Assembly (NCBI RefSeq): GCF_015864665.1
Contig: NZ_JADYWU010000001.1
Location: 496,001 to 560,000 of the forward strand
Reading direction: 5' to 3'
Length of the DNA stretch: 64,000 nt
DNA from: Salinibacterium sp. SWN167
Lineage (GTDB): Bacteria; Actinomycetota; Actinomycetes; Actinomycetales; Microbacteriaceae
Below, one piece after another: positions 39,656 to 54,786 of the stretch. The position numbers and the translations under genes were made by a program. The first letter of the stretch is position 1. Each line of letters begins with the position of its first letter. The notes beneath the pieces are model-generated. The model did no database searches. It had not been told where the DNA came from and saw nothing but the letters and a program-made list of their open reading frames with translations.

Positions 39656-41266
39656 ATGAAGACATCACGTTTCGGGTTGGGCGCTGTTGCGCTCGCCTCG
39701 GCGGTCTCGCTCACTCTCGCCGGCTGCGCTAGCAGCGATGGTGGAGATTCAGGCGACGTTAACCAGATCATCACTACCAATGGAAGTGAGCCGCTCGGCC
39801 CGCTCGTTACCGTCGGTACTACCGAGACCGGTGGCGGTAAAATCCTGACGTCCATCTACGCGGGTCTGGTTTCGTATGAGGCAGACGGAAGCATCCGCAA
39901 CGACGTCGCTGAGTCGATCGAGTCGGAAGATGGTCAGCACTGGACCGTCACTCTCAACGACGGTTGGACCTTCACCAACGGTGAGGCAGTAACCGCCAGT
40001 TCGTTCGTTGACGCCTGGACCTATGGCGCGACGTTCAGCAATGCACAGGCTTCGTCGTACTTCTTCGATGACATCGAGGGCTTCAGCTACGAAGCAGACT
40101 CGGAGCTGACTGGACTCAGCGTTGTCGATGACCTGACATTCGATGTCACTCTTGTTGCCCCTGAGGCTGACTGGCCGTTGCGCTTGGGCTACACGGCATT
40201 CATGCCGTTGCCCTCGATTGCTTTCGACGACATGGAAGCTTTCGGCGAGAACCCCATCGGTAACGGTCCGTACATGATGGATGGCGATGACGCGTGGGAG
40301 CACGATGTGCAGATCTCGCTCGTCACGAACCCTGACTACGACGGTGTGCGCACGCCAGCCAACGGTGGTGTCACCTTCAAGTTCTACACGTCACAGGATG
40401 CTGCCTACGCGGACGTTCTCGGTGGAAACCTTGACGTTCTCGATGCTGTTCCCGACAGCGCTTTCGGCATTTTCGAGGATGAGTTCGGCGACCGCGCCAT
40501 CAACCAGCCGGCTGCCATCTTCCAGGCGTTCAACATTCCTTACTACCTCGATCACTTCAGTGGCGAAGAAGGAAAGCTGCGTCGTGCCGCTATCTCGATG
40601 TCGATCGACCGCGACGAGATCACCGACGTAATCTTCCAGGGCACCCGCACGCCGGCAACCGACTTCACGTCGCCCGTGATTGACGGATACTCGAGCGATC
40701 TCGATGGCGCCGAAGTTCTCGACTACAACCCTGAAGAAGCGCAGAAGCTGTGGGCTGAAGCAGACGCGATCTCACCCTTCGGCGACAGCACGTTCGACAT
40801 TGCCTACAACGCAGACGGTGGCCACCAGGGTTGGGTAGATGCGGTTGCAAACAGCATCAAGAACACTCTCGACATTGATGCCGTCGGCAAGTCGTACCCC
40901 GACTTCAAGTCGTCGCTCGAAGACCGTGTTGCAGGAACCCTCACCGGTGCAACTCGCGCCGGATGGCAGGCCGACTACCCGTCGCTGTACAACTTCCTCG
41001 CACCGCTCTACCAGACCGGCGCTGGCTCGAACTATGAGGGCTACAGCAGCTCTGAGTTCGATGGTCTCCTGAAGGAGGGTGCCGCAGCGCAGACCGTTGA
41101 CGATGCAACCGCCCTTTATCAGGATGCTCAGGAAGTTCTGTTGAAGGACCTGCCCAGCATCCCGCTGTGGTACTCCAACGCCACCGGCGTCTCGGCTGAC
41201 ACTGTCGAGAATGTTCAGTTCGGTTGGGATTCAGTTCCGCTGTACTACCAGGTCACCAAGGGCTAA
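39656..41266 (+). CDS. Oligopeptide ABC transporter substrate-binding lipoprotein
   Basis: A 536-residue type-5 solute-binding lipoprotein like OppA/DppA. The signal ends LTLAGC with the lipidated cysteine at residue 24. The mature part has the family pattern with WTVTLNDGWTFTNGEAVTA, RRAAISMSIDRDEI and the Asp/Tyr-rich peptide pocket. It collects peptides outside the cell for an ABC permease. No permease or ATPase genes follow: a strong terminator comes 30 bases after its stop. Divergent from the peptidase operon, so it probably feeds that operon while borrowing a permease coded elsewhere. Confidence 0.93.
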   Translation: MKTSRFGLGAVALASAVSLTLAGCASSDGGDSGDVNQIITTNGSEPLGPLVTVGTTETGGGKILTSIYAGLVSYEADGSIRNDVAESIESEDGQHWTVTLNDGWTFTNGEAVTASSFVDAWTYGATFSNAQASSYFFDDIEGFSYEADSELTGLSVVDDLTFDVTLVAPEADWPLRLGYTAFMPLPSIAFDDMEAFGENPIGNGPYMMDGDDAWEHDVQISLVTNPDYDGVRTPANGGVTFKFYTSQDAAYADVLGGNLDVLDAVPDSAFGIFEDEFGDRAINQPAAIFQAFNIPYYLDHFSGEEGKLRRAAISMSIDRDEITDVIFQGTRTPATDFTSPVIDGYSSDLDGAEVLDYNPEEAQKLWAEADAISPFGDSTFDIAYNADGGHQGWVDAVANSIKNTLDIDAVGKSYPDFKSSLEDRVAGTLTGATRAGWQADYPSLYNFLAPLYQTGAGSNYEGYSSSEFDGLLKEGAAAQTVDDATALYQDAQEVLLKDLPSIPLWYSNATGVSADTVENVQFGWDSVPLYYQVTKG

Positions 41267-41339: not shown

Positions 41340-42443
41340 CTAAACGGCACCCGTTGGTGTGGTGTCGCCGGCTTTTATCGTCGCAATGGTCTTTGCCCAT
41401 ACGTCAGGATCTCCAACTAGGTGGGGGAGGGAAATCCTGTCGGCGTAGTCGCCGTGGCGGGCCAACATGGCGCTCCCCACCTCCTGCGGCTCAGCTTCCA
41501 CTGCGAAAAGCTCCAGCACGTCATCGCCTATGAGCTTGGTCATTCGGCTCCAGCGGTCTTTCGACTTCTCCACCGACAGCGCGTGGAGTCGATCGCCGAG
41601 GTCGCCCAAGTCGTGTGCTTCCCAGACAGGGCGGTAGCTGCGGGTGCTACCGTAGAAGGCGACCTGATATCGGACCTGCTCCCGATTTTTGACGAGCTCC
41701 TCTTCAGTGGCGCCCGTAACGAGGAAACCACCGGCCGTGATCGTGAAGTCATCACGCTTGCGACCGCCAGCGGCGAGCCCGCGTTCGATCGCGGGCATCA
41801 TGACGGCATCTAGATAACCGCGGGTCCAGAACCCGTGGAGGACGATTCCATCCCCCACCTCGGCGCTGACCTCCGCCATGCGTGGGCCCACAGCGGCGAG
41901 CCAAATTGGCGGTGGTGCCGGCGTCCGAGTGTGCGGCACGAAGTATTCAGTCATGAGTGAGTGCTCGTAGAACTCTCCAGAGAACGCCAGTGGCGTGTCC
42001 TCGCGCCATGAATCCCAGATTGCCGTCGTCGCAAGCACAAACTCTCGCATGCGAGCGGTCGGCTTACTCCAGGGCATGGAGAAACGGCGGGTGATGTGCG
42101 CGCGGATCTGAGTGCCGAGACCAAGGTGAAAACGTCCGGCGGTGAGCTCTCCCAGTTCGTGGGCGGCATACGCAAGAGTCATGGGGGTTCGTGCGAACGC
42201 GACAGCAATCTTTGTTCCCAGGTCCATATCTCCCGAGTATTGGCTCGATACGGCGCATGCAACGAATGGATCCCCGGTCACTTCGGCTGCGAAGATACCG
42301 TCAAAGCCGAGTTGCTGAGCCAGCAACGTGCTCTCTGCCGTATGCCCAAGGTCGCTCAGATGAGTGTCGACCTTCAGGGCGTTGCTCCGCCCACTCTCGT
42401 CGCTTTCGCTGATGAGACCTCTGTGGTCGTCACGCTGCCGCAT
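41340..42443 (-). CDS. LLM-class flavin-dependent oxidoreductase (F420-type)
   Basis: A 367-residue TIM-barrel oxidoreductase of the luciferase-like group. The core starts KVDTHLSDLGHTAESTLLAQ near residue 24 and continues with FARTPMTLAYAAHELGELTAGRFHLGLGTQIRAHI, the usual cofactor and phosphate contacts, then PIWLAAVGPRMAEVSAEVGDGIVLHGF. In this sub-family F420 is a common cofactor but FMN cannot be ruled out. The ATG at 42443 has GAGGAAG upstream; a CTG at 42377 with GGAG seven bases before it would remove 22 poorly conserved residues. Divergent from the TRAP operon and likely part of the same pathway. Confidence 0.85.
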   Translation of the reverse strand: MRQRDDHRGLISESDESGRSNALKVDTHLSDLGHTAESTLLAQQLGFDGIFAAEVTGDPFVACAVSSQYSGDMDLGTKIAVAFARTPMTLAYAAHELGELTAGRFHLGLGTQIRAHITRRFSMPWSKPTARMREFVLATTAIWDSWREDTPLAFSGEFYEHSLMTEYFVPHTRTPAPPPIWLAAVGPRMAEVSAEVGDGIVLHGFWTRGYLDAVMMPAIERGLAAGGRKRDDFTITAGGFLVTGATEEELVKNREQVRYQVAFYGSTRSYRPVWEAHDLGDLGDRLHALSVEKSKDRWSRMTKLIGDDVLELFAVEAEPQEVGSAMLARHGDYADRISLPHLVGDPDVWAKTIATIKAGDTTPTGAV

Positions 42444-42545
42444 GGGCTCTCACTTCCTCGTGAACCTTGTCGTACGTCGAGCTATGAGCCGCTCTCGTGC
42501 TGAGAGTGGTGTCGACTCTGGTCACCGTAACACCGCCGCCGCCAG

Positions 42546-42557
42546 TTTGTATGCATT
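42546..42557. promoter_or_regulatory. GTATRC operator copy 1
   Basis: TTTGTATGCATT, a near-palindrome centred on GTATGC, followed by GCGTCAA. It belongs to the shared set of the island. Confidence 0.5.
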
Positions 42558-42685
42558 GCGTCAAATGGGCCGCGGGGGCATTCTCGGCTCACAAAGACGA
42601 GTTCACGGTGCCATTTTTGGCAAAGTGCTGGCCGCGCCGCTATTTTGGCGATGATTAGCGCACGCCGCGAGCCGCCGAAACCGTC

Positions 42686-42699
42686 ATTCGTATACAAAT
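42686..42699. promoter_or_regulatory. GTATRC operator copy 2
   Basis: ATTCGTATACAAAT, a near-palindrome centred on GTATAC, followed by GGCGTTAA. The core matches typical FadR/GntR-type operators. Confidence 0.55.
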
Positions 42700-42749
42700 G
42701 GCGTTAAATAGGCGCAGAAACCTTGACTTAACGACGAAATACTCGAAGT

Positions 42750-42759
42750 ATGTATACCA
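42750..42759. promoter_or_regulatory. GTATRC operator copy 3, at the TRAP promoter
   Basis: ATGTATACCA with core GTATAC at 42752-42757, about 20 bases downstream of TTGACT, so a bound protein would cover the -10 region of the TRAP operon. Confidence 0.5.
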
Positions 42760-42867
42760 AACGCACCAAGCTAGTCCAATGAGGGGCTCGCTTCGACGGT
42801 CTATCAGCCCCGTCATGGAGAATTCCGGCTCCCTCAATGTTAATGATGACATCAGAGAAGGACTCAC

Positions 42868-44151
42868 ATGATGACTATGGGAACGAAACCACGCCGGCGG
42901 ATCATGGCGACGATAGCAGTGGGGGCTGCCGCTGCGTTTGTGCTGTCAGGGTGCTCCCGCGCTGACATCGGTGGAGGAGAGGTTGCCACCGGCAACGCGC
43001 TGCCCGCCGGCTCATCGGCAGCTGACTTCCAAGAAGCGCTGAGCGACATGCCAGACACGACTTTGACCTTTCAATCGACTGTTTCGTCGGCCGACAGCCC
43101 CGACGCAGAGTCAACGCTGGAATTCATCGAGCGCGTCAACGAGTATTCGGGCGGCAAGATCATGCTCGACGTTACCTGGGCGAACGGAATCGTACCCAAC
43201 GTCGTTGAGGTCGACAAGGCTCTGGCTGACGGCCGCATCGACATTGGGTATGCCTGGCCGCAGTACAACGCCTCGGAGTACCCGGCCAACAACTTGCTCG
43301 TAAACCTGACCCTGCTCCGTGACCCGCAGATGGTGCCTGGTTACTACTCGATTATGGCGTCGCTGCAGCAGGAAGGCCTTCAGACTCCCGAGATAATGGA
43401 AGAGTACACAAAGCAGGGGATCACGCCCCTCACCGTCATGGGCGCCGACGGTCCATCCATCATCGCGTGTACTGAGCCTGTTCTCACCCTTGCCGACCTC
43501 GCGGGTAAGCAGATTCGCGCCGGCGGAGTCGCGCAGTCTCGTCAAATCGAAGAGCTGGGTGCAGTGCCGGTTTCGATGCCGTATACCGAGGTGTATGAAG
43601 CACTGCAGCGAGGGATACTTGACTGCTCGATGTCAGCTCATGCAATTGCTGTTATTGCCGGTCACACCGAGGTTGCTCCGTTCATCATGCACACCACTGC
43701 CGCGAGCTTCGTGTCGACTCCGTCGAACTTGTACGCCGGGCCGGTGTTCACGACGCTCCCCGTCGTGGCGCAGCAGCTCATCCTTGAATCGGTCGACATC
43801 ATGCGGGGAGCGTCCATTGAGTCTGGCCTCAGTCGTATCGCTACTACTTTCGCTGATTCCGTCGCTGACAATGGCGGGGCCTTACTGGCCTTCGACCCCG
43901 AGGTCGACGCGAGACTTGCCGAGATCAACGAAGGTATCGTCCAGGATGCGATTGACTCGGACTTGCTCGATGGAGCATCGCTGGTACAGCGCATCGAGGC
44001 GGCGAACGTCGAATGGCTGGAAATCGGTACTGAGCTCGGTTATACCGAAGACGGTCCCGTCGAGGAATTCCCGGAGTGGTATATCGGTACCGACTCGGAG
44101 CCGTGGGCAAGCATGGTGAGCGAAATGATCACGCAGAAGCGGTTCAGCTAG
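42868..44151 (+). CDS. dctP: TRAP transporter substrate-binding lipoprotein
   Basis: A 427-residue DctP-family receptor for carboxylates. The signal ends FVLSGC with the lipidated cysteine at residue 29. The family arginine region reads LADLAGKQIRAGGVAQSRQIEELGAVPVSMP, where the Arg binds the carboxylate, followed by YEALQRGILDC. It catches a carboxylic acid outside the cell and hands it to DctQM. At 427 residues it is longer than the usual 330, with a 40-residue linker after the lipid anchor and a C-terminal extension. A strong hairpin follows it before dctQ. Ribosome site AGAAGGA. Confidence 0.92.
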   Translation: MMTMGTKPRRRIMATIAVGAAAAFVLSGCSRADIGGGEVATGNALPAGSSAADFQEALSDMPDTTLTFQSTVSSADSPDAESTLEFIERVNEYSGGKIMLDVTWANGIVPNVVEVDKALADGRIDIGYAWPQYNASEYPANNLLVNLTLLRDPQMVPGYYSIMASLQQEGLQTPEIMEEYTKQGITPLTVMGADGPSIIACTEPVLTLADLAGKQIRAGGVAQSRQIEELGAVPVSMPYTEVYEALQRGILDCSMSAHAIAVIAGHTEVAPFIMHTTAASFVSTPSNLYAGPVFTTLPVVAQQLILESVDIMRGASIESGLSRIATTFADSVADNGGALLAFDPEVDARLAEINEGIVQDAIDSDLLDGASLVQRIEAANVEWLEIGTELGYTEDGPVEEFPEWYIGTDSEPWASMVSEMITQKRFS

Positions 44152-44158
44152 AGCTGCC

Positions 44159-44196
44159 TGCGAGGGCTCGGTGCCACCTGGCCCCGAGCCCTCGCA
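44159..44196 (+). other. Hairpin between dctP and dctQ
   Basis: TGCGAGGGCTCGG at 44159-44171 pairs perfectly with 44184-44196 (13 bp, 12-base loop), seven bases after the dctP stop and 66 before the dctQ start. No T run follows. Likely a 3'-end stabiliser or partial terminator that raises receptor output over permease output. Confidence 0.75.
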
Positions 44197-44261
44197 ACCC
44201 TCGAGGCTCGTCCGCGTGCCAACCCCTCACTACCCACCGACCCAAAGGAGCAACGACAACG

Positions 44262-44852
44262 ATGTCCCAATCCGCAGCGTCGCCGCCGACAGTAGGCGGC
44301 ATAATCATAAAACTCCCGGACAGGCCAGCGAAACGCTTCGCGCACCGGGCCACCTTCATACTTGAGGTGATTGCCTCGGCACTCATCTTCGTCATGATGC
44401 TGATCGTGCTGGTGAACGTGATTAGCCGCTACGCATTCGGTCAACCGATCCAGGGCACAAACGAACAGGTTGGATTCATCCTGCTCCCGGCAGTGGTATT
44501 CATCGGCTATGTCGTGGCCCAGGTGCGTGGCGCGACGATCGAAGCCGACATCGTCTACCAAAAGTTCCCGAGGCAGATTCGACGTGAAGTCCGGTTTGTC
44601 ACTGGTATCTTCTCGATGATCGTCACTTTTGGCTTCGGCTGGTACGGCATGATCGAGGCAATTCACGCAAACGAAATTGGTAAGAGTGCCCCGGCAAGCG
44701 ATGTTTTCATCGCCCCAATTTACTGGTTCGTGCCTGCCGCTTTTGCGGTGCTAGTTGTTCTGTTCGCCCTCGACGCCTTTCGCGCCATCCGGGGCCGTTT
44801 CGACAAAGAGGACTTCACCGAAGAAGCCCTTACAGATGCGGCGATAGGTTAG
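44262..44852 (+). CDS. dctQ: TRAP transporter small membrane subunit
   Basis: A 196-residue DctQ protein with four hydrophobic helices (near 32-54, 70-88, 107-128 and 152-174). VISRYAFGQPIQGTNEQVGFILLP is split over helices 1-2 and is the family mark. It pairs with DctM to form the sodium- or proton-driven permease. The ATG at 44262 is chosen because AAAGGAG stands upstream; the longer open frame covers the hairpin. The next gene starts nine bases on. Confidence 0.93.
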   Translation: MSQSAASPPTVGGIIIKLPDRPAKRFAHRATFILEVIASALIFVMMLIVLVNVISRYAFGQPIQGTNEQVGFILLPAVVFIGYVVAQVRGATIEADIVYQKFPRQIRREVRFVTGIFSMIVTFGFGWYGMIEAIHANEIGKSAPASDVFIAPIYWFVPAAFAVLVVLFALDAFRAIRGRFDKEDFTEEALTDAAIG

Positions 44853-44861
44853 GACCCAGCT

Positions 44862-46373
44862 ATGACTGATCAAAAGACCAGCGTGTTCGAGCCCGGTGTC
44901 GCCGTGGGTAGCACAGCTGTGGCGCAACAATTTACCAAAGAGAACCCGAGTCCCGGCCGCCTCTGGGCCTATCGGGTCGGCATTGCCCTTGCTCTCGCCG
45001 TCCCCCTGAGTGGCGTGTTCATTGCTCCAACTCGTGAGCTCGTCGGACTCTCCGCGATTTTACTGATGTTCGTTTTGATGCTCATGAGAATCCCCATCGC
45101 TTTCGCGCTGGCGATACCTGGGCTCCTCGGTGTTTACTCGCTCAACGGGATTGCCGCGCTGGCAAATCTACTTAAGGGAGAGCCTCTTATCGCGGCCTCA
45201 CAGTGGGCACTGAGCGTGCTGCCGATGTTCGTGCTGATGGGGCTGTTGCTGTGGCAGTCAGGAATCACGACCAAGATGTACGAAACTGCGCGCAACTGGT
45301 TGGGCTGGCTGCCCGGCGGCTTGGGCGTCGGCACGAACATGGCAGGCGCAGGACTGGCTGCTGTATCGGGGTCGACCATGGGCACGACGTATGCGCTGGC
45401 CCGCATTGGAATCCCTGAGATGCTCAAGGCCGGGTATGGGAAGCCGATCGCTATCGGTTCGGTTATCGTAGCCGGACTTCCCGGGCAGCTAATTCCGCCC
45501 AGTATCTTCCTTGTGGTCGTTGCCGGACTTCTTGAGAACCCTGTGGGCCCTCAGCTGATGGCGGGGCTCATTCCGGGCATTACGGTGGCACTCCTCTTCT
45601 CTCTGATGATCGTCGTCTTTTCTGTGTTCATCCCGAAGTGGGCTGGCCGCGGAGCAACGGCCGCGGTGAGGCCGACCATTAGCTGGAGCGGGCGTTGGCG
45701 TTCGCTAGCCGATATCTGGCCGGTAGCTGTGCTCATCTTGGTCGTTCTCGGCGGCATGTTCATGGGCGTGTTTACCGCCACCGAGGCAGGAGCCGCGGGC
45801 GCGTTTGGTGCACTCATCTTTTGTGTGTGGTTCCAGCGCAAGAACAAGCCGTTGGCAAAGGTCGGAACCTCGGCCGTGGAGACGGTCAGCAGCGTGGGTT
45901 CCATCTTCTTGATGATCGCTGGCGCGCACATACTCGGCTCGCTGGTTGCCGTCTCAGGTCTGGGGAGATTGTTCTCCGATTTTGTCTCGAACACCGGGAT
46001 GGGGCGCGTTGAATTCCTGATCCTCGTCATGTTCATCTACATCCTCTTGGGCATGTTCATGGATCCGCTCGCGATTTTGCTGACGACCATTCCCATTCTG
46101 ATGCCTGTACTAAATCAGCTCGGTGTTGACCCACTCTGGTTTGGCGTCTTCGCCGTCTTCATGGGTGAGCTCGCGATTCTCACACCGCCAGTGGGCATGC
46201 TGAGTTTTGTGATCCACAAGATCGTTCAGGATCCGGCGGTCAATCTGGGCCAGCATTTCAAGCTGACGGACGTGTTCAAGGCCGTGATGCTGTTCCTGCC
46301 GATGGCGATCATCGTGGTTCTCATCTGGATCTTCTTCCCAGAGATTGTTACCTGGTTGCCTAACCAGATGTAG
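44862..46373 (+). CDS. dctM: TRAP transporter large membrane subunit
   Basis: A 503-residue DctM permease with about twelve or thirteen hydrophobic helices, the transport channel of the TRAP system. Typical parts are RIPIAFALAIPGLLG, GAGLAAVSGSTMGTTYALARIGIPEM and YILLGMFMDPLAILLTTIPI, plus PPVGMLSFVIHK near the end. About 50 polar residues precede the first helix. It ends 18 bases before a perfect terminator. The dctPQM order is the common one. The substrate is a carboxylate but no specific one can be named; the operon opposite suggests an acid that enters CoA metabolism. Confidence 0.95.
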   Translation: MTDQKTSVFEPGVAVGSTAVAQQFTKENPSPGRLWAYRVGIALALAVPLSGVFIAPTRELVGLSAILLMFVLMLMRIPIAFALAIPGLLGVYSLNGIAALANLLKGEPLIAASQWALSVLPMFVLMGLLLWQSGITTKMYETARNWLGWLPGGLGVGTNMAGAGLAAVSGSTMGTTYALARIGIPEMLKAGYGKPIAIGSVIVAGLPGQLIPPSIFLVVVAGLLENPVGPQLMAGLIPGITVALLFSLMIVVFSVFIPKWAGRGATAAVRPTISWSGRWRSLADIWPVAVLILVVLGGMFMGVFTATEAGAAGAFGALIFCVWFQRKNKPLAKVGTSAVETVSSVGSIFLMIAGAHILGSLVAVSGLGRLFSDFVSNTGMGRVEFLILVMFIYILLGMFMDPLAILLTTIPILMPVLNQLGVDPLWFGVFAVFMGELAILTPPVGMLSFVIHKIVQDPAVNLGQHFKLTDVFKAVMLFLPMAIIVVLIWIFFPEIVTWLPNQM

Positions 46374-46391
46374 AGAAGCCCCACAACGAAC

Positions 46392-46425
46392 AAAGACCGT
46401 ACGCACCCGCGTACGGTCTTTGTTT
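46392..46425. terminator. Perfect hairpin terminator between TRAP and CoA operons
   Basis: AAAGACCGTACGC at 46392-46404 pairs perfectly with 46409-46421 around an ACCC loop, and GTTTT follows. It lies between two convergent operons and the AAAGAC start gives a T run on the other strand, so it should stop both. Confidence 0.95.
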
Positions 46426-46444
46426 TATGCAGTGACTGCGCGCA

Positions 46445-46843
46445 TCACGGGATGCGCGGAACGAAGAACGGGATCACTTCCCCGCCACGATCCACGCTGG
46501 ACTTGTCGAACGCGACCCTCATCCGCGCCCCCTCCGGCAGGAGCGAATCCACTTCGCCAAACCGGGTCCACCACCATGGGCCCTCATCCAATCGGACGAT
46601 TCCGACGAAGTCGCGGCTCGGTACGCCGCCCGCCCCGCGAATGTGGATGATGGATGAACTGACGACGGTGGCGTACCCCGATGCCGCAAACTGTTCGATC
46701 CGGTCCGGATCCATGTGTGGGGTTTCTTGCACGTCAAGCACTCGGCCCGTTTCTCGATCACGGGTGAGTAGGAACACATCGCGGCTCAAGGCTTCAAAGA
46801 AGTCTGATGATGCGGCGTCGCGAATTACGACGGGATGGTTCAT
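46445..46843 (-). CDS. OB-fold (DUF35-like) partner protein without zinc ribbon
   Basis: A 132-residue protein of the DUF35/ChsH2-like OB-fold type, normally a rubredoxin-like zinc ribbon followed by an OB domain. Here FFEALSRDVFLLTRDRETGRV stands, split over two lines of the alignment, where family members have FWxGLxxGxLxxQxCxxCG, and none of the four cysteines remains. The OB part has VVSSSIIHIRG and DFVGIVRLDEGPWWWTRF. It begins nine bases after the thiolase-like gene ends. Such proteins bind and support thiolase-like lyases, so a complex with that gene product is likely. The lack of the ribbon is odd. Confidence 0.78.
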   Translation of the reverse strand: MNHPVVIRDAASSDFFEALSRDVFLLTRDRETGRVLDVQETPHMDPDRIEQFAASGYATVVSSSIIHIRGAGGVPSRDFVGIVRLDEGPWWWTRFGEVDSLLPEGARMRVAFDKSSVDRGGEVIPFFVPRIP

Positions 46844-46852
46844 CTGTGCCTC

Positions 46853-48025
46853 CTAGTTAGTTCCGAGGATGAGGGTCGAGTGGTGGTCGAGGATCCCGCC
46901 GTTGCCCGAAACCAGAACCCGGTCGTGAGAGACGGACTGCCGCTCGCCTGCTTGCCCCCGTGCCTGGATGATGCCCTCTGAGAGTGGCGTCATCCCCCAC
47001 ATGTAGTAGGAGGAGAGTTGTCCGCCGCCCGTGTTGAGCGCGAGATGACCGCCAGGGCCGAGCATTCCGGGCTCCGATACAAACGCCCCGCCCTCACCTT
47101 TGTCGCAGAAGCCATAATCTTCGAGGCTGACGAGCACCGTGTAGGTGTAGCAATCGTAGAGTTCAACTACGTCGATCTCGTCAAGGTTCGTGCGTGCCAT
47201 TTCGAGCGCTCTGCGGCCAGATTGTGCGGCCCCGGTCACAAGTCCGAAGCTATCGTTGCGCCGCCCTGTCGAGCCAGGATGGCCTTGGCCCCAGCCGAGG
47301 ACTTCCACCGGAGGTTGCTTGAGTGATCGTGCTCGCTCGGCCGACGTGACAATTACGGCGATGCCGCCATTGGAGACTAGGCAGCAGTCGAAGAGGTGGA
47401 ACGGCTCCGCGATCCACCGCGAGGCGTGATACTCCTCGAGGCTGAGGGGCGTTCTGAATTGGGCGTGCGGGTTAAGTTCTGCCCATCGCCGCTGAGCTAC
47501 GGCGATAGCCGCGAAGTCGTCGTTAGTGGTGCCGTACGCGTTCATGTGGCGCTGTGCTGCTAGGGCGTACATGGTCGTCGGTGAGGTGATGCCGCTCGCG
47601 GCCGTTAACCCTGGCCAGCCCGTTAAGGTCGGGGCCACTTTGTTGTAGGACGCCCCCGAGCTTGCTCCGCTGACGAGCGGAGCGTCCGCCCACACACAGG
47701 CGACTGTCGTCGCCGTACCCGACATTATGGCCATCGCAGCGTGCTGAATCATTTGGCCGGCGGTAGAGCCAAAGGCTTGCATCTTCGTGAGGAGACGGAG
47801 ATCCTTGAGTTGCAGGTCAGTTTGGAGTGAGAGGCCGACTGAGTCGTCGAGCCCACCGGAGACAATGAGCCCGTCGATATCTCCGAGGTTGAGGCCGGCG
47901 TCGACGGTGGCCGCGCGCACCGCCTCGCCCGCAAAATCCCGAGCAGTGGACCCGTAGACCTTGCCGAGAGGGGTCATGCCCAGGCCGACGATCGTCGGGT
48001 TCAGAGCCCTGCGGGAGCCGTTCAT
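46853..48025 (-). CDS. Thiolase-like protein (SCP-x/Ltp2-type), likely C-C lyase
   Basis: A 390-residue thiolase-fold protein. The places of the thiolase catalytic residues are altered: the nucleophile-cysteine region reads AFGSTAGQMIQHAA with no cysteine, the GHP histidine loop is replaced by LNTGGGQLSSYYMWG, and the last cysteine loop reads LVSGNGGI. Such changes mark the Ltp2-like proteins, where a thiolase fold paired with a DUF35 protein cleaves aldol-type CoA esters instead of doing Claisen cleavage. ELYDCYTYTVL offers tyrosines of the type used there. The ATG at 48025 overlaps the crotonase stop as ATGA. Retro-aldolase activity is an inference. Confidence 0.82.
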   Translation of the reverse strand: MNGSRRALNPTIVGLGMTPLGKVYGSTARDFAGEAVRAATVDAGLNLGDIDGLIVSGGLDDSVGLSLQTDLQLKDLRLLTKMQAFGSTAGQMIQHAAMAIMSGTATTVACVWADAPLVSGASSGASYNKVAPTLTGWPGLTAASGITSPTTMYALAAQRHMNAYGTTNDDFAAIAVAQRRWAELNPHAQFRTPLSLEEYHASRWIAEPFHLFDCCLVSNGGIAVIVTSAERARSLKQPPVEVLGWGQGHPGSTGRRNDSFGLVTGAAQSGRRALEMARTNLDEIDVVELYDCYTYTVLVSLEDYGFCDKGEGGAFVSEPGMLGPGGHLALNTGGGQLSSYYMWGMTPLSEGIIQARGQAGERQSVSHDRVLVSGNGGILDHHSTLILGTN

Positions 48026-48843
48026 CGTCCGGTCCATTCTGGCTCGCGCTTCTCGACGAAAGCCCTCAAGCCTTCGCCGGAGTCGTGACTCTTTCTGAGC
48101 CTCGCCATCTCATCGTTCGATCGTGCCCAGTAACTTGACTCCTCGATGGCGGTGCCTTGGCTGATCGCTTTTGCGATTCTCTTGCTGGCCTGAACTGACA
48201 GAGGGGAATTCGCAGAAATTCGCTGAGCAAGCGCAAGCGCGTTCGGCATCAGGTCCTTCGCCGGCACCACGGTGTTGATGAGGCCAAGGCGTAACGCCGT
48301 GTCAGCTTTCATCGATTCACCGGTGAGGATCGCCTCCATGGCCACCTTGCGTGGTATCTGCTGAGGGAGGCGAAAGGCACCTCCCGCGGCCGCCAAGATT
48401 CCTCTTCGCACCTCGGGCAGCCCGAATGTGGCGTGTTCAGCAGCCACGGCAAGGTCGCTCGCTAGAACGAGTTCAGTGCCTCCGCCGAGCGCGTAGCCGT
48501 TCACCGCCGCGATGATCGGCTTAGAAATCTCGTGATGGGCGAAGCCCCCGAAACCCCAGACCTCAAGCCGTGGGTCGCGGGGAAGTCCTACATCGGCGGA
48601 TGCTTCTTTGAGGTCAGCCCCCACACAGAAACTCTGCTCGCCCGCTCCGGTAATGATGACAGCTCGCACGGCAGGATCGTCGTCAGCGAAGTCGAGCGCG
48701 ATGCCGATTCCCAGCGCCATTCCCTGGGTGATCGCGTTGTGTGCTTCGGGGCGGTTCAGCGTCACGACGAGGGTGTGACCCTCCACCCGGGTGACTACCA
48801 AGCCACCGCTTGCGGTGTGTATCTGTTCGCTGGCGCTGATCAT
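48022..48843 (-). CDS. Enoyl-CoA hydratase (crotonase family)
   Basis: A 273-residue crotonase. The oxyanion parts are SFCVGADLKEA and GYALGGGTELVLASD, and both catalytic glutamates of true hydratases are present, in GGGTEL and in GLPEVRRGILAAAGGAFRLP. It would add water to an enoyl-CoA to make a 3-hydroxyacyl-CoA. It starts 43 bases after the HIBCH-like gene and overlaps the next gene start as ATGA. In the island it may prepare a beta-hydroxy CoA ester for the thiolase-like protein. Confidence 0.92.
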   Translation of the reverse strand: MISASEQIHTASGGLVVTRVEGHTLVVTLNRPEAHNAITQGMALGIGIALDFADDDPAVRAVIITGAGEQSFCVGADLKEASADVGLPRDPRLEVWGFGGFAHHEISKPIIAAVNGYALGGGTELVLASDLAVAAEHATFGLPEVRRGILAAAGGAFRLPQQIPRKVAMEAILTGESMKADTALRLGLINTVVPAKDLMPNALALAQRISANSPLSVQASKRIAKAISQGTAIEESSYWARSNDEMARLRKSHDSGEGLRAFVEKREPEWTGR

Positions 48844-48886
48844 TCGTACTCTCCTCGTTCGCCGGCCTGATCATCGTGACGACGAG

Positions 48887-49993
48887 TCAGGGAGATGATT
48901 GTTGGCTCGGGGTGGGGGAGTGCCGCGGTTCGGCTCCCAAATCGACGGGGAAGTTGGCAATGTCGCGGAGACTTTCCTCGCTGACATCCGCGAGATTCCT
49001 AGGCTCCCAGCGCGCCGCTCGTTTTTCGAGGAGCGTCGCGGTGACACCTTCGGCTAGGTCGCTGCGCGCACTGAGACCAACCATGTAGCGAAACTCCTGC
49101 TGCAAACACCCCCAGAGATCTAGATCGGCGGCGGATCGAATCGCGGAGAAGGTGGCTTTCACTGCAAACGGCGATGCAACACGTATTTTTTCAGCCGCGC
49201 TGATGGCAGTACCTGACGAGCTCGCATCGAGGCGATTGAGCATATCCTCAACACTGTCAGCGTTGTACCAGTACTCGGCCATCACGCTTTGCTCTGCCAC
49301 GGTGGCCGCAGGCGCCGGGGAAGCAAACCTATTAATGACGTCCTGGACGGTGCTTTCACCGCGGGCAGAGAGCGCGGAGACAAGGCTGTCGAGTGCGGAA
49401 TGCGGCACGTAATCGTCGGCGAGGCCACAAAATAGGGCATCCGCTGCATCCATGGTTGAGGATGTGAGAGCCCAGTGCATTCCCCATCCGTGTCGTACAC
49501 GCGCGAGGTGGTAACTCATTCCCGCATCAGGGGTAAGCCCGATTTTGGTCTCGGGCATCGCCAGGCGAGAGCGTTCCGTAACGATGCGGTGCGATGCATG
49601 CCCAGCGAGACCGAAGCCTCCGCCCATCACGATGCCGTCCATCAAAGCCACCACGGGTTTGGGGTAGGTGGCGATCAGAAAATCTAGCGCGTACTCCGCT
49701 CGCAGGAAGTGATGGTCGCCCTCGCCCTCGCTCGCACCGTCTGATCGTAAGTCCCCTCCAGCGCAAAACCCTCGGTCGCCGGCGCCGCGGAGCACCACGA
49801 GCTTAACCGCCGGGTCCGAACGCCACAGCGTAAGTGCGGTCATCAACTGGGAGACGAGATTCAGATCCAGCGCGTTGATTCGGTGAGGGCGATTAAGGGT
49901 GGCTATTCCTACGTCGCCTGAGACCTCGAGAAGAAGGCTTCGGTCGTGTGTCACATCGAACCCCGCATTCTTTGGCCGAGTCGGATTGCTCAT
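48887..49993 (-). CDS. 3-hydroxyisobutyryl-CoA hydrolase-like protein
   Basis: A 368-residue member of the HIBCH branch of the crotonase family, longer than hydratases. The oxyanion part is RGFCAGGDLRSD and DGIVMGGGFGLAGHA, and the catalytic Glu and Asp of hydrolases are in LAMPETKIGLTPDAGMSYHLARV, split over the motif. It frees CoA from a short hydroxyacyl-CoA, as in valine breakdown, but other small acyl-CoAs or hydratase activity are possible. First gene of a four-gene operon, with a near-consensus promoter upstream (50084-50112). Confidence 0.88.
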   Translation of the reverse strand: MSNPTRPKNAGFDVTHDRSLLLEVSGDVGIATLNRPHRINALDLNLVSQLMTALTLWRSDPAVKLVVLRGAGDRGFCAGGDLRSDGASEGEGDHHFLRAEYALDFLIATYPKPVVALMDGIVMGGGFGLAGHASHRIVTERSRLAMPETKIGLTPDAGMSYHLARVRHGWGMHWALTSSTMDAADALFCGLADDYVPHSALDSLVSALSARGESTVQDVINRFASPAPAATVAEQSVMAEYWYNADSVEDMLNRLDASSSGTAISAAEKIRVASPFAVKATFSAIRSAADLDLWGCLQQEFRYMVGLSARSDLAEGVTATLLEKRAARWEPRNLADVSEESLRDIANFPVDLGAEPRHSPTPSQQSSP

Positions 49994-50072
49994 CGGCGAG
50001 ACCCACGACTCTTCGAGAAGGCGAGCACATCATGCGCGGGCAGACGTGACATCCAAAGCTCTCAAGATGGGC

Positions 50073-50086
50073 TTTCGTATGCAATT
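50073..50086. promoter_or_regulatory. GTATRC operator copy 4
   Basis: TTTCGTATGCAATT with core GTATGC at 50077-50082. It covers the -10 box and predicted start of the HIBCH operon promoter, so a bound protein would block it. Confidence 0.6.
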
Positions 50087-50112
50087 ATCGTCAATGAAGC
50101 AAATATCGTCAA
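50084..50112 (-). promoter_or_regulatory. Promoter of the HIBCH-crotonase-thiolase operon
   Basis: On the minus strand TTGACG (50112-50107), a 17-base spacer and GATAAT (50089-50084) form a near-consensus vegetative promoter, placing the RNA start near 50077, about 84 bases before the first gene. A tandem CGTCAA occurs at 50089-50094 on the plus strand. Confidence 0.8.
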
Positions 50113-50135
50113 CTAAAACGAGCGCAATTTGATCC

Positions 50136-50148
50136 AATTGTATGCATT
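50136..50148. promoter_or_regulatory. GTATRC operator copy 5
   Basis: AATTGTATGCATT with core GTATGC at 50140-50145, followed by AGCGTCAA, nearly the same as copy 1. It lies 24 bases upstream of the HIBCH operon -35 box. Confidence 0.55.
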
Positions 50149-50249
50149 AGCGTCAACCCGGTCTGATCATCACGAGAGCGATTCAGGCCCTGCGGGCCGC
50201 AATAACAGAGTAGGCGTTGAGCGAAAGCCCGAGGCGTTTCTTGCCGCTC

Positions 50250-51287
50250 TTAGCCCGTGGTCGAATCTCCACCGAGAAACGCTTCGGCGGCACCAGACCG
50301 AACGAAGTCCATGTGCATCTCAGTTTGCAGGAGTGCCGACGCAATATAGAACCCAGCAAGGTTCTCCCAGCCAGCAGTCCACGTAAGTCGGGAAGCGACC
50401 TCCCAGACCGTTGACTCACCGTTCGTCGCGAGAGCATCCGCAACTTCCTTCGTGCGTCTGAGGTGGTGAGCCGCCATTGACTCGGAACGTTTCGCTAAGC
50501 CGCGGAAGCGATATTCGTGGCCAGGGGCCGCTTCGCACCCGTCTAGCTCGGCTGTGCGGCGCAGTCCCTTGAGGTACGCAGCCATAGGATTCTCCTGGCT
50601 TTTCCCACCGAGCCCCAACCCCGGATGGATCCGGGGCAGGACATGGTCGCCGGTGAACACGAGCGAGGCTTCGGGATCGTGAAAGCACAGGTGTCCGGTG
50701 GTGTGACCGCCGGTGTGCATCGCGCGAATGTGACGTCCCGGTATTGCGAGTTCTTCCCCGTCAGCGAGCAGCACATCGGGCGTCGGGGCGAGTGGCGGCT
50801 TGGCACCCTCCAGCTGGCTCAGCTCACGGAGTTGTGCGGCGGGGATACCCCAAGACCCGAGGTCCCAGCGTTTATCGCGACCGGCTGCAGCGGCAACGGA
50901 TGCAGTGAACTCATCGGCGCCCACCATCAGCGATGCGCCAGTAGCATCACGGAGTTGCTCCACCTGCCCGGAGTGGTCGGGATGCAAATGCGTCACCACG
51001 ATCGACTGGATTTGCGAGAGGTCGGAGCCGATCTCCGGGAGGAAAGACTCGAGCCGGAGCGCATTTTCTTTCGTTCCCCAACCCGGGTCGATTACATGCA
51101 GGCTGTCATCGGAGCCGACGATCACGTAGCAAAAGCTGTATCGCAAGTGTGGGCCAGGCATTTCCATTGTCACCGACCAGACTCCATCGGCTACTCGATC
51201 GGGAGCGGGAAGCTGCCCGTCAGCGATCGCGCTGGCTTGTGTCGGACTGACGGGGGCGGGAGCGTGCGCTGAGGAAGGCCTGACCAT
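50250..51287 (-). CDS. MBL-fold metallo-hydrolase (glyoxalase II-like)
   Basis: A 345-residue metallo-beta-lactamase-fold hydrolase. The metal site reads VTHLHPDHSGQVEQL (HxHxDH), then AMHTGGHTTGHLCF, VFTGDHVLP and AAPGHEYRF, with a helical C-terminal winged-helix part near 270-345. It probably cuts a thioester or lactone. The ATG at 51287 is chosen because a palindromic operator and likely promoter sit just upstream of it, inside the longer frame. It is upstream of the HIBCH operon on the same strand but separated by 256 bases with that operon's own promoter. Confidence 0.87.
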   Translation of the reverse strand: MVRPSSAHAPAPVSPTQASAIADGQLPAPDRVADGVWSVTMEMPGPHLRYSFCYVIVGSDDSLHVIDPGWGTKENALRLESFLPEIGSDLSQIQSIVVTHLHPDHSGQVEQLRDATGASLMVGADEFTASVAAAAGRDKRWDLGSWGIPAAQLRELSQLEGAKPPLAPTPDVLLADGEELAIPGRHIRAMHTGGHTTGHLCFHDPEASLVFTGDHVLPRIHPGLGLGGKSQENPMAAYLKGLRRTAELDGCEAAPGHEYRFRGLAKRSESMAAHHLRRTKEVADALATNGESTVWEVASRLTWTAGWENLAGFYIASALLQTEMHMDFVRSGAAEAFLGGDSTTG

Positions 51288-51304: not shown

Positions 51305-51316
51305 AATGTATACATT
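51305..51316. promoter_or_regulatory. GTATRC operator copy 6, perfect palindrome
   Basis: AATGTATACATT is a perfect 12-bp palindrome 17 bases upstream of the metallo-hydrolase start. It is the most symmetric copy of the set. Confidence 0.65.
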
Positions 51317-51439: not shown

Positions 51440-52423
51440 ATGATCTCCCTCGAAGAAATGACAGCCCGCCAGCAACCCCTCGAATCGAACTTCGGATACC
51501 GCAGCACAGCATCCGAAGTGATCGCCGGCTTCGACCTCGCCGGCAAGACCGCCGTCGTCACTGGCGGCTACTCAGGCCTCGGCTTCGAAACGGTGAAGGC
51601 GCTCGCCGAAGCGGGCGTTGCCGTGATCGTTCCCGCCCGTCGACCGGAGAAGGCGACCGAAGCGCTCGAAGGCCTGGCGAACGTTCGCGTCGAGAAGATG
51701 GACCTCGGCGACCTCGACTCTGTTGCCGCCTTCACCGCTGGGATGCGCGAAGCCGGCACCCGCGTCGACATCATGATCAACGCCGCCGGAGTCATGGCAA
51801 CCCCCGAACTGCGCACGCCCCAGGGCTGGGAAATGCAGTTTGGAACCAACCTTCTCGGACACTTTGCTCTCGTTGCCGGCCTCGAAGCCCTGCTGCAGGA
51901 TGGCGCGCGAATCGTGTCGTACTCGTCGATCGGCCACTGGCGTTCGCCCGTGAACTTCGACGACATCAACTTCGACACCACCGACTACGAGCCCTGGGTT
52001 GCCTACGGCCAGTCGAAGACAGCGGATGCCCTGTTCGCTGTTGCTCTGGATGCTCGCCTGGCCGGCCGCGGCATCCACGCGTTCTCGGTGCACCCCGGTG
52101 GCATCATGACCGACCTGCAGCGCAACATGCCTCGCGAAGAGTTGCTCGCACGCCAGTGGATCGACGAAGAGGGCAACCCGAATCCGCTGTTCAAGACGCC
52201 GGCTGAAGGTGCGTCGACCGGCCTCTGGGCGGCAACTGCTCCTGAGTTGGCCGAGCGTGGCGGTGCGTACTGCGAGGACTGCTCGATCAAGGGTGTCGTG
52301 GCGGATGACGAGACCGACATGATGATCGGCGGCGCTAAAGCATGGGCGATCGATCCCGAGGCTGCCGAAAAGTTGTGGGCGGTCGCGGTGAAGGCGACCG
52401 GCTTGGATCCGTTCTCTAGCTAA
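51440..52423 (+). CDS. Short-chain dehydrogenase/reductase
   Basis: A 327-residue SDR-family oxidoreductase of the retinol-dehydrogenase-like type. The cofactor loop is TGGYSGLGFETVKALAEAG near residue 40, the NAG motif is INAAGVMATP, and the catalytic serine, tyrosine and lysine are in VSYSSIGHWRS and WVAYGQSKTADALF. It reduces or oxidises an alcohol or ketone with NAD(P). The substrate is unknown. It stands alone on the plus strand beside the catabolic island, with no copy of the island operator directly at its start, so membership is doubtful. Confidence 0.9.
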   Translation: MISLEEMTARQQPLESNFGYRSTASEVIAGFDLAGKTAVVTGGYSGLGFETVKALAEAGVAVIVPARRPEKATEALEGLANVRVEKMDLGDLDSVAAFTAGMREAGTRVDIMINAAGVMATPELRTPQGWEMQFGTNLLGHFALVAGLEALLQDGARIVSYSSIGHWRSPVNFDDINFDTTDYEPWVAYGQSKTADALFAVALDARLAGRGIHAFSVHPGGIMTDLQRNMPREELLARQWIDEEGNPNPLFKTPAEGASTGLWAATAPELAERGGAYCEDCSIKGVVADDETDMMIGGAKAWAIDPEAAEKLWAVAVKATGLDPFSS

Positions 52424-54150: not shown

Positions 54151-54786
54151 TTAGGCCGGGGTGAAGGTCGCAAACGGCGACGCAGCCACTATGTAGGTGA
54201 CCCACAGCGCGGTGATGATTGCGATGCTCGTGATCACTCGCGGCGTGGTCAGGGGCCGGGCGCGAGGGTTGGCGGCCGCGAGAATGACGACCGATACTGC
54301 GGGAAGGTGCAGCGACATCCCCCGGGCAAGAGCGATCCACTCGCTAGTGCCACAGGCTTCGCGAAAACTCTGCCCGGAGTCGCCCCATGCTGCTGCGGCG
54401 AAGAGATGGAGAGGAACGACCGCGATGAGAAGGATTGCGACGACAGCGGCGGTGGTCAAGGGCAACAGCTCGGGGCGTGCCGCGTGAATAAGGCGTCGCA
54501 GCCAAAACCACGCACCGATAGCAGCGGCGGCGAGCAATGGAGAGGCCACGGCGGCAAGATCGAGTTCAGAGGCGACGCGCCCGCAATCATTCCAGCGGTC
54601 GAGGGCGGGAAACATGGCGATGCTCGAGCCCAGGCTGAGCGCCACGCAGGAGAGAAGCGCAACCCAAATCACCGCGACTCTCCGCAGTGGTGTCAGGTGA
54701 GGGACGTGTTCAGCGTGGTCGGTCACGGCGTGATGTCGGCGTCGTCCGACGAATGCTCCGGCTCGACGGGATACTGCACGAAGCAT
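54151..54786 (-). CDS. Hypothetical membrane protein, about five helices
   Basis: A protein of up to 211 residues with hydrophobic helices near 37-58, 76-95, 107-130, 150-168 and 184-203. The first 30 residues are basic and unlike a helix, so a GTG at 54726 (V21) may be the true start. No family was recognised. It lies 10 bases after the small lipoprotein gene on the same strand, so a two-gene unit is likely. Function unknown. Confidence 0.6.
   Translation of the reverse strand: MLRAVSRRAGAFVGRRRHHAVTDHAEHVPHLTPLRRVAVIWVALLSCVALSLGSSIAMFPALDRWNDCGRVASELDLAAVASPLLAAAAIGAWFWLRRLIHAARPELLPLTTAAVVAILLIAVVPLHLFAAAAWGDSGQSFREACGTSEWIALARGMSLHLPAVSVVILAAANPRARPLTTPRVITSIAIITALWVTYIVAASPFATFTPA

Follow-up and report, generated by a model that had tools for sequence, protein, structure and literature searches.

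At 41340-51287 of the stretch analysed here (‘the window’, 64,000 nucleotides of contig 1 of the 3.0-Mb genome of Salinibacterium sp. SWN167) is an island of genes at whose centre are a thiolase-fold protein, THL, and a small partner, OB, with an oligonucleotide/oligosaccharide-binding (OB) fold. We consider it probable that the island provides uptake and cleavage, one half of a system for carboxylate degradation in which coenzyme A (CoA) esters would undergo hydration and retro-aldol cleavage, not oxidation and thiolysis. Gene content, residue conservation, predicted folds, neighbourhoods and palindromes were observed, and from them we infer catalysis, complex formation, regulation and substrate. 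From sequence and modelled structure THL-OB is predicted to be a DUF35-partnered thiolase-fold retro-aldolase found outside any steroid context. The window island probably makes up no more than half of the system, and a second island, on contig 2, is linked to it because the same operator-like palindromes are present in both.

The thiolase-fold protein and its DUF35-type partner

THL (46853-48037, minus strand; Thiolase_C_1 at 5.2e-40) has none of the three residues by which an SCP2-type thiolase is known, the nucleophile Cys, the His of the GHP motif and the last Cys. When it is aligned with the thiolases 6esq and 7yvy, Gly90 stands opposite the nucleophile Cys, which is replaced and not merely displaced, and Tyr345 opposite the GHP His, with Ser377 at the site of the last Cys. 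The initial annotation had considered the usual catalytic residues lost, and for these three that holds, but another Cys was kept: Cys296 in Y294-D-C296-Y is the Cys of the thiolase H-D-C-F motif. An alignment of 81 THL rows comprises the window's, those of 79 loci and that of L137, with the near-identical sister locus L026, from Salinibacterium sp. SWN248, omitted. Gly90, the motif YDC[YF] that begins at Tyr294, Tyr345 (the site of Tyr344 in Ltp2 of Thermomonospora curvata) and Ser377 are each present in 81/81. Since the loci are the best 80 of 501, the counts here and below describe near relatives.

What would such an active site be suited to? Sal, the bile-acid aldolase from Comamonas testosteroni, cannot function without Tyr302 and Cys304, has Gly at the nucleophile site and, according to its authors, is unable to carry out thiolysis. 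Ltp2 uses Tyr294 as base and Tyr344, which corresponds to Gln352 of Sal, as acid (all in the available portion of PMC12329534). THL has the base Tyr294, the Gly and, as potential acids, both Cys296 and Tyr345. Because the Cys of the Sal dyad and the Tyr that is the acid of Ltp2 are present together, its active site, as read from the alignment, joins both known retro-aldolase solutions. Ltp2 had been proposed as the model, and Tyr294 and Tyr345 do match it, but with one Cys retained Sal is as much the nearest mechanistic model as Ltp2.

Structure prediction, carried out for THL and OB as single chains, is in keeping with this. The THL model (mean pLDDT 82.5) matches Sal (Z 47.0), Ltp2 (46.9), 4u4e (46.1) and the Trypanosoma brucei protein TbSLP (46.1), all tied, with 44.7 for the thiolase 6esq, about 41-42 for SCP2-type thiolases and about 34 for canonical ones. 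The OB model (mean pLDDT 93.2) gives Z 14.6 to both 6ok1_B and 9myr_B.

OB (46445-46843, minus strand) has no Cys at all; the initial annotation had noted the loss of all four zinc-ribbon cysteines. By Pfam its recognition is weak (29.4 bits, cut-off 27.1), and a search of the PDB with the single sequence yielded no relative. A family profile of 71 rows matches the DUF35 part of ChsH2 (1.5e-22), Shy (4.5e-17) and the DUF35 protein of 6esq (2.8e-15), the top matches being the partner chains 6ok1_B and 9myr_B; these are the DUF35 partners of the very enzymes that THL resembles. Of the two parts of DUF35, the OB fold (PF01796) and the zinc ribbon (PF12172), the window's protein has the fold and gives no PF12172 match, in contrast to OB2 of the same genome (below), which does. 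Its gene is directly downstream of that for THL in 78/81 loci (L026 here representing the window). The three without it there are L031, L034 and L072, the first two of which have an OB-like match ~10 kb upstream of THL. In the natural fusion at L063:10001-11632, THL and a zinc-bearing DUF35 protein are joined by a Pro/Ala-rich linker. From this we take OB to be the DUF35 partner of THL in a predicted complex.

Loss of zinc ligands is not peculiar to the window. In 26/78 OB proteins the first 60 residues have at most one Cys, and in the other 52 they have three to five. On a THL tree, a quick one with SH-aLRT support only and long-branched outgroup rows, the zinc state changes three times (undirected). 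DUF35 partners without zinc ligands accordingly occur in three branches: the window's clade, a Nocardioides/Pimelobacter/Actinomadura clade (L051-L092) and L137.

Beside THL is a crotonase-fold protein (48022-48843, minus strand) with Glu124 and Glu144 at the positions which, by reference to rat crotonase, we take to be catalytic. Both are retained in 18/18 aligned crotonases, the window's plus 17 that BLAST retrieved at E 1e-30; L088, L092 and L099 are outside this alignment despite a crotonase-type match within 2.5 kb of THL. The Glu pair supports the earlier suggestion that this is a putative enoyl-CoA hydratase. Residues and fold likewise support the reading of THL-OB as a predicted aldolase rather than a thiolase.

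The sequence of events envisaged is as follows. DctPQM would import an organic acid, whose CoA loading would most likely be by the fused class III CoA-transferase of the second island, or by a ligase. The crotonase, to judge by its Glu pair, would hydrate the 2-enoyl-CoA to a 3-hydroxyacyl-CoA, and THL with OB would perform the retro-aldol step proposed from residues, fold and relatives. THL would cleave between C2 and C3, Tyr294 accepting the hydroxyl proton as the acyl-CoA enolate leaves. Protonation of the enolate by Cys296 and/or Tyr345 would release acetyl- or propionyl-CoA as the short acyl-CoA, the other product being an aldehyde or a ketone. OB would work without zinc as the DUF35 partner of THL. 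Aldehyde dehydrogenases (ALDHs) of the second island would oxidize an aldehyde product. In the Ltp2 system aldol cleavage is required to overcome an unfavourable hydration equilibrium (available portion of PMC11321319), and a retro-aldol pull on hydration might operate here too.

The island, its counterparts in relatives and known systems

Gene content and strands are as initially described: a TRAP (tripartite ATP-independent periplasmic) transporter, DctPQM, a tight four-gene unit facing it and a further gene at each edge. The order is LLM (minus), dctP, dctQ and dctM (plus), then OB, THL, crotonase, HIBCH-like and MBL (all minus). The first gene, for a luciferase-like monooxygenase (LLM)-class oxidoreductase of the F420-dependent subfamily TIGR03617 (41340-42443; 372.8 bits, cut-off 278.15), is divergent from dctP with operator-like sites between. 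All three transporter subunits are present: the solute-binding DctP (42868-44151; PF03480 at 9.9e-22), the small permease DctQ (about 44262-44852, start codon inferred; PF04290 at 6.3e-21) and the large permease DctM (44862-46373; DctM profile at 7e-78). A perfect 16-bp inverted repeat with a 4-nt loop (46389-46424) separates the convergent ends of dctM and OB and is a possible two-way terminator. In the four-gene unit the gaps are 9 and 43 nt, with one overlap of 16 nt, and its first gene is for a 3-hydroxyisobutyryl-CoA hydrolase-like (HIBCH-like, ECH_2) protein (48887-49993; ECH_2 at 5.8e-100, above the PRK05617 cut-off). A promoter-like TTGACG-17-GATAAT 5′ of the unit (50084-50112, minus strand) is a consensus match only, and the promoter and terminator scan was at chance level, with 3 promoter-like sites in 11.5 kb against 2.7 expected. 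The metallo-beta-lactamase (MBL)-fold hydrolase (50250-51287; profile match) has a probable ATG start at 51287.

Two flanking genes deserve mention. At 39656-41266 a gene for what by eye is an oligopeptide-type solute-binding lipoprotein adjoins the island, beside peptidase-like genes and without an operator-like site. At 51440-52423 a gene for a short-chain dehydrogenase/reductase (SDR) of subfamily PRK06196, above cut-off, is divergent from that for MBL, and the operator-like site at 51306 might serve both.

A profile search of the proteins of 41340-51287 found no CoA ligase, CoA-transferase or acyl-CoA dehydrogenase. The initial deduction that CoA loading is done elsewhere stands in that respect, and there is now a candidate for it, the fused CoA-transferase at G000:C2:306364-308715 (G000 being the window's own genome).

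Neighbourhoods in relatives were counted with home-made profiles whose seed proteins were Pfam-checked; 59/81 loci have at least 7 kb on both sides of THL and 22/81 less than 7 kb on one side. There is a hydratase-type match within 2.5 kb of THL in 27/81 loci, at least two class III CoA-transferase domains within 7 kb in 20/81, and the two together in 16/81; ALDH is within 7 kb in 10/81 and acyl-CoA dehydrogenase in 3/81. In six loci (L027, L036, L044, L048, L059 and L060) genes for a fused CoA-transferase, crotonase, THL and OB are contiguous on one strand with no gene, and hence no dehydrogenase, between them. The fused proteins of relatives (L027), like that of the second island, have the two PF02515 domains of a paired class III CoA-transferase, and the L027 halves match the chains of benzylsuccinate CoA-transferase 9fn0 (B at 1e-47, A at 3e-20). 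A second type of locus (L051, L055, L057, L065 and L084; Pfam check confined to L055, whose MaoC-like protein scores below cut-off) has dctPQM, P450, two CoA-transferases, FAS1-DH, MaoC-like, THL and OB, and additionally genes for a zinc-dependent alcohol dehydrogenase (Zn-ADH), an AMP-ligase and an HpcH/HpaI aldolase. The P450 of these Nocardioides-type loci is nearest CYP101J2, then CYP143 and P450cam; CYP101J2 and P450cam act on cyclic monoterpenoids.

Other settings also occur. In L040 and L046 the position that separates the CoA-transferase pair from THL is occupied not by a crotonase but by two tandem acyl-CoA dehydrogenase-type matches (one Pfam-checked, in L040). In L047 (11-3530) THL-OB is a few kb from genes for ectoine synthase (PF06339), a class III aminotransferase, a PhyH-type dioxygenase and a solute-binding protein, and adjoins a nitronate-monooxygenase-like gene. 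Ergothioneine-biosynthesis-like genes are upstream of or beside THL in L062, L091 and partly L045, L091 having by Pfam a histidine-specific methyltransferase (PF10017) and an FGE/DinB protein.

How does THL-OB compare with what is known? Sal-Shy (PDB 9myr) shares with it the thiolase fold, Gly, Y-D-C-Y and a DUF35 partner. THL-OB is nevertheless not Sal proper, as Sal has Gln352 where THL has Tyr345, and Shy is fused to a MaoC hydratase whereas OB is alone and without zinc ligands. Sal-Shy is also linked to steroids, while in the window the adjoining hydratase is a crotonase and no steroid context was found. Ltp2 with the DUF35 protein ChsH2 (PDB 6ok1) has the thiolase fold, the base Tyr294 and the acid Tyr344 that parallels Tyr345. 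THL-OB is not Ltp2 proper either, having YDCY in place of YDHF, so that Cys296 stands where Ltp2 has His, and a lone partner devoid of zinc ligands in place of a ChsH2 domain with its MaoC fusion. TbSLP (5ab4-5ab7), 26% identical to THL, has Y-D-C-F and no nucleophile Cys, and was proposed as an aldolase; unlike THL it has no DUF35 partner, as far as the available portion of PMC12329534 goes.

Two further comparisons are with non-steroid pathways. The benzylsuccinate pathway uses a crotonase, a two-part class III CoA-transferase (9fn0) such as THL relatives have, and benzoylsuccinyl-CoA thiolase (7pxp), which like THL-OB pairs a thiolase fold with a DUF35 partner. The likeness of the CoA-transferases carries no claim of a shared substrate, and the window itself lacks one. 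Since THL is without the nucleophile Cys and the six contiguous units without a dehydrogenase, hydration and retro-aldol cleavage are envisaged in place of the oxidation and thiolysis of benzylsuccinate breakdown. In degradation of the ibuprofen side chain a thiolase-like pair, ipfDE, is credited with retro-aldol removal of propionyl-CoA; it differs in acting after a CoA ligase and a dioxygenase, and the likeness to THL-OB is one of description only (available portion of PMC9195938). A module such as that proposed here was not found among the open papers listed, which is weak evidence of absence.

A second island and shared palindromes

The second island (G000:C2:293024-312155; stretches L131 and L132, gene starts approximate) begins with genes for a major facilitator superfamily (MFS) transporter (C2:293024-294274, plus), a GntR/FCD regulator (C2:294335-295108, minus) and a second THL-OB pair, THL2, with Y-D-A-F (C2:295119-296276, minus), and OB2, with an intact zinc ribbon (C2:296273 to about 296689, minus). 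There follow, on the plus strand, an SDR (C2:297034-297957), a P450 (C2:297995-299269), a ferredoxin-reductase type protein (C2:299460-300734), a Zn-ADH (C2:300685-301872), an ALDH-type match (C2:301955-303307), another MFS transporter (C2:303441-304799), an HtaA protein (C2:304811-305341), a MaoC-type hydratase (C2:305528-306367) and the fused CoA-transferase (C2:306364-308715). An aldo-keto reductase (C2:308781-309626, minus), a crotonase (C2:309734-310516, plus) and an ALDH (C2:310728-312155, plus) complete it. Genome-wide there are 7 AMP-binding and 5 CoA-transferase domain matches. The P450 is nearest CYP268A2 (2.9e-101), then CYP125 and CYP124 types; CYP124 prefers methyl-branched lipids (available portion of PMC6469627).

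What ties the two islands together is a palindrome, AATTGTATACAATT, which is upstream of LLM/dctP, of the four-gene unit and of MBL, recurs through the second island and often comes as two copies 61-63 bp apart. It was first spotted among the window's intergenic inverted repeats, the sites being picked by eye and with the same pattern. Upstream of dctP a pair 62 bp apart consists of TCGTATACAA (42688-42697) and ATGTATACCA (42750-42759). A pair 63 bp apart precedes the HIBCH-like gene, with TCGTATGCAA (50075-50084) and TTGTATGCAT (50138-50147), and ATGTATACAT (51306-51315) is ~19 bp before the MBL start. Another copy of TTGTATGCAT, at 42547-42556, is the weakest of the window's six by weight score (12.4 with weights from the second island, where the best control has 13.2).

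The window has WNGTATRCNW at seven positions, six of them 5′ of island genes and the seventh at 54781. There are 10 strand matches against 2.83 expected, a number reached in 0/100 shuffles; in L132 there are 12 against 1.06 (0/200 shuffles), and in L131 4 against 0.99 (5/200). Weights built from eight sites of the second island rank the six window sites first in the 64 kb (12.4 to 20.0), and five of these score above anything in the control. This control amounts to 378,004 bases of the window's own genome, in 15 stretches of 20 kb taken from across it and five fetched for other genes. Conversely, window-only weights give eight sites of the second island at least 12.9; seven of these, including a new one at L131:12742, exceed the best control site (13.9). 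Across both islands six pairs of sites are 61-63 bp apart; among 63 weak control sites no pair is spaced at 60-64 bp. Some 63 bp is six helical turns.

On this evidence the two islands are predicted to be one regulon for hydration and retro-aldol cleavage, and the GntR/FCD protein of the second is the natural candidate regulator acting at the palindromes.

Alternatives and possible substrates

Several observations weigh against what is proposed. Likeness of fold does not establish function, since 6esq, an acetoacetyl-CoA thiolase, also reaches Z 44.7, and 4u4e, the best sequence match of THL, is annotated only as a putative thiolase. A HIBCH-type hydrolase encoded alongside THL would be a competitor for the 3-hydroxyacyl-CoA. 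There is no hydratase within 2.5 kb of THL in 54/81 loci, and within 7 kb there is an SDR in 19/81 and a thiolase in 5/81, with which conventional oxidation and thiolysis could proceed at those loci, and an AMP-ligase in 14/81, replacing or beside CoA-transferases. The fused CoA-transferase of the second island is only ~27-30% identical to those of THL loci. Ectoine-type gene clusters are near THL in 22/80 loci (Pfam-checked in L047 only); with so many pairs adjoining such genes, THL-OB need not serve this pathway everywhere. As to the palindromes, the operator idea derives from the very sequences used to examine it. The window site at 42547 and the second-island sites L132:6712 (12.9) and 2408 (12.6) are below the best control sites, and the pair L131 8912/8974 has a weak second site. 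No relative in the set has the motif at a score of at least 13, and the sister genome (1 difference in 441 bases, 0 in 371) is too alike for a check of conservation.

The alternative that fares best, unlikely as we think it, is a chance adjacency of TRAP and the four-gene unit, each handling a substrate of its own. The units are convergent with an inverted repeat between, and the same type of TRAP adjoins other CoA-ester genes (AMP-ligase, acyl-CoA dehydrogenase, thiolase, crotonase or CoA-transferase) in 7/7 inspected loci without THL, six of the window's order and one of the phylum. Because of these seven, this type of TRAP seems associated with acids that are broken down as CoA esters, and not with THL in particular. 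DctM at E 1e-60 is present in 32/396 genomes of the order. At E 1e-100 such a DctM is in 2/396 genomes for the phylum, the window's own included; in the other (G479) it is among CoA-transferase, acyl-CoA dehydrogenase, thiolase and AMP-ligase genes with no THL. Against chance are that the island's dctM is the only DctM match found in the genome, that operator-like pairs of the same kind precede both units, and that TRAP adjoins THL also in five Nocardioides/Pimelobacter loci. The gene order of relatives thus does not exclude TRAP, as the initial annotation had allowed that it might, but TRAP genes are near THL in just 6/81 loci of two lineages (the window's, represented by its sister L026, and those five), an adjacency requiring two changes on the THL tree. 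In TRAP trees the window's DctM and DctP are beside the THL-linked Nocardioides/Pimelobacter ones; these trees carry little weight, since sampling was narrow (THL-linked TRAPs and loci of the window's order), the root is the midpoint and the window's rows are long-branched.

Might THL-OB still catalyse a Claisen-type reaction, as thiolase or acyltransferase, with Cys296 as the sole active-site thiol? Its fold and partner are common to the real thiolases and acyltransferases 6esq, 7pxp and 5m3k, Cys296 is invariant in the 81 rows, and there are the thiolase and SDR genes mentioned above. However, every row has Gly for the nucleophile Cys and Tyr for the GHP His, and Sal, with the same Gly and YDCY, is by its authors' account (available portion of PMC12329534) an aldolase incapable of thiolysis. 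We regard a Claisen-type activity as distinctly improbable.

A steroid side-chain system like Ltp2-ChsH2 or Sal-Shy is suggested by the nearest enzymes of known reaction being steroid aldolases and by the CYP268A2, CYP125 and CYP124 affinities of the second island's P450. It is rendered very improbable by the crotonase serving as hydratase beside THL and by the DUF35 protein being alone, not MaoC-fused. The extradiol dioxygenase family TIGR03213, the only steroid gene searched for, has no match in the genome at E 0.001, and there are just four Acyl-CoA_dh_N matches in it.

Valine or isobutyrate breakdown by HIBCH and crotonase, with THL-OB a passenger, would fit the PRK05617 score and an MmsA-type enzyme above cut-off elsewhere in the genome, but is likewise very improbable. 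No HIBCH or crotonase is around the MmsA-type gene (home-made profiles, by eye). Among 297 genomes of the order, 22 besides the window's own have a match to the HIBCH-like protein, with identities no higher than 47%. Among THL loci a HIBCH-like best match is confined to the window's own and sister genomes, while crotonase-THL-OB recurs.

Returning to hydration and retro-aldol cleavage, what might the acid be? TarPQM of Rhodopseudomonas palustris, a TRAP system like DctPQM, binds coumarate, ferulate, caffeate and cinnamate, all 2-enoic acids, and so provides a precedent for their uptake; unlike the window island it comes with no mention of a DUF35 aldolase in the available portion of PMC3610893. 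By analogy a cinnamate-type or phenylpropenoid substrate is possible. More adventurously, and tentatively since we lean towards doubting it, the two islands could be a co-regulated route for methyl-branched isoprenoid acids requiring no acyl-CoA dehydrogenase and using a third class of thiolase-fold aldolase. The CYP124/268-like P450, ADH and ALDH would oxidize an allylic methyl to give a 2-methyl-2-enoic acid, or TRAP would import such an acid, which we conjecture would dispense with acyl-CoA dehydrogenase. The fused CoA-transferase would load CoA and a hydratase add water. The Tyr-Cys-Tyr aldolase with its zinc-free DUF35 partner would then release propionyl-CoA and a chain-shortened aldehyde for ALDH to oxidize.

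If the isoprenoid route were true, it would mean a class of aldolases that stands between Sal and Ltp2 and lies beyond steroid metabolism. With both sets of acids in one active site, point mutants could show which acid works and for what chain. Where CoA loading was simply placed ‘elsewhere’, the shared palindromes now point to particular genes and to a particular candidate regulator. More generally, the system proposed would extend DUF35-partnered aldolases beyond steroids, with crotonase, CoA-transferase and TRAP importer taking the place of the steroid set.

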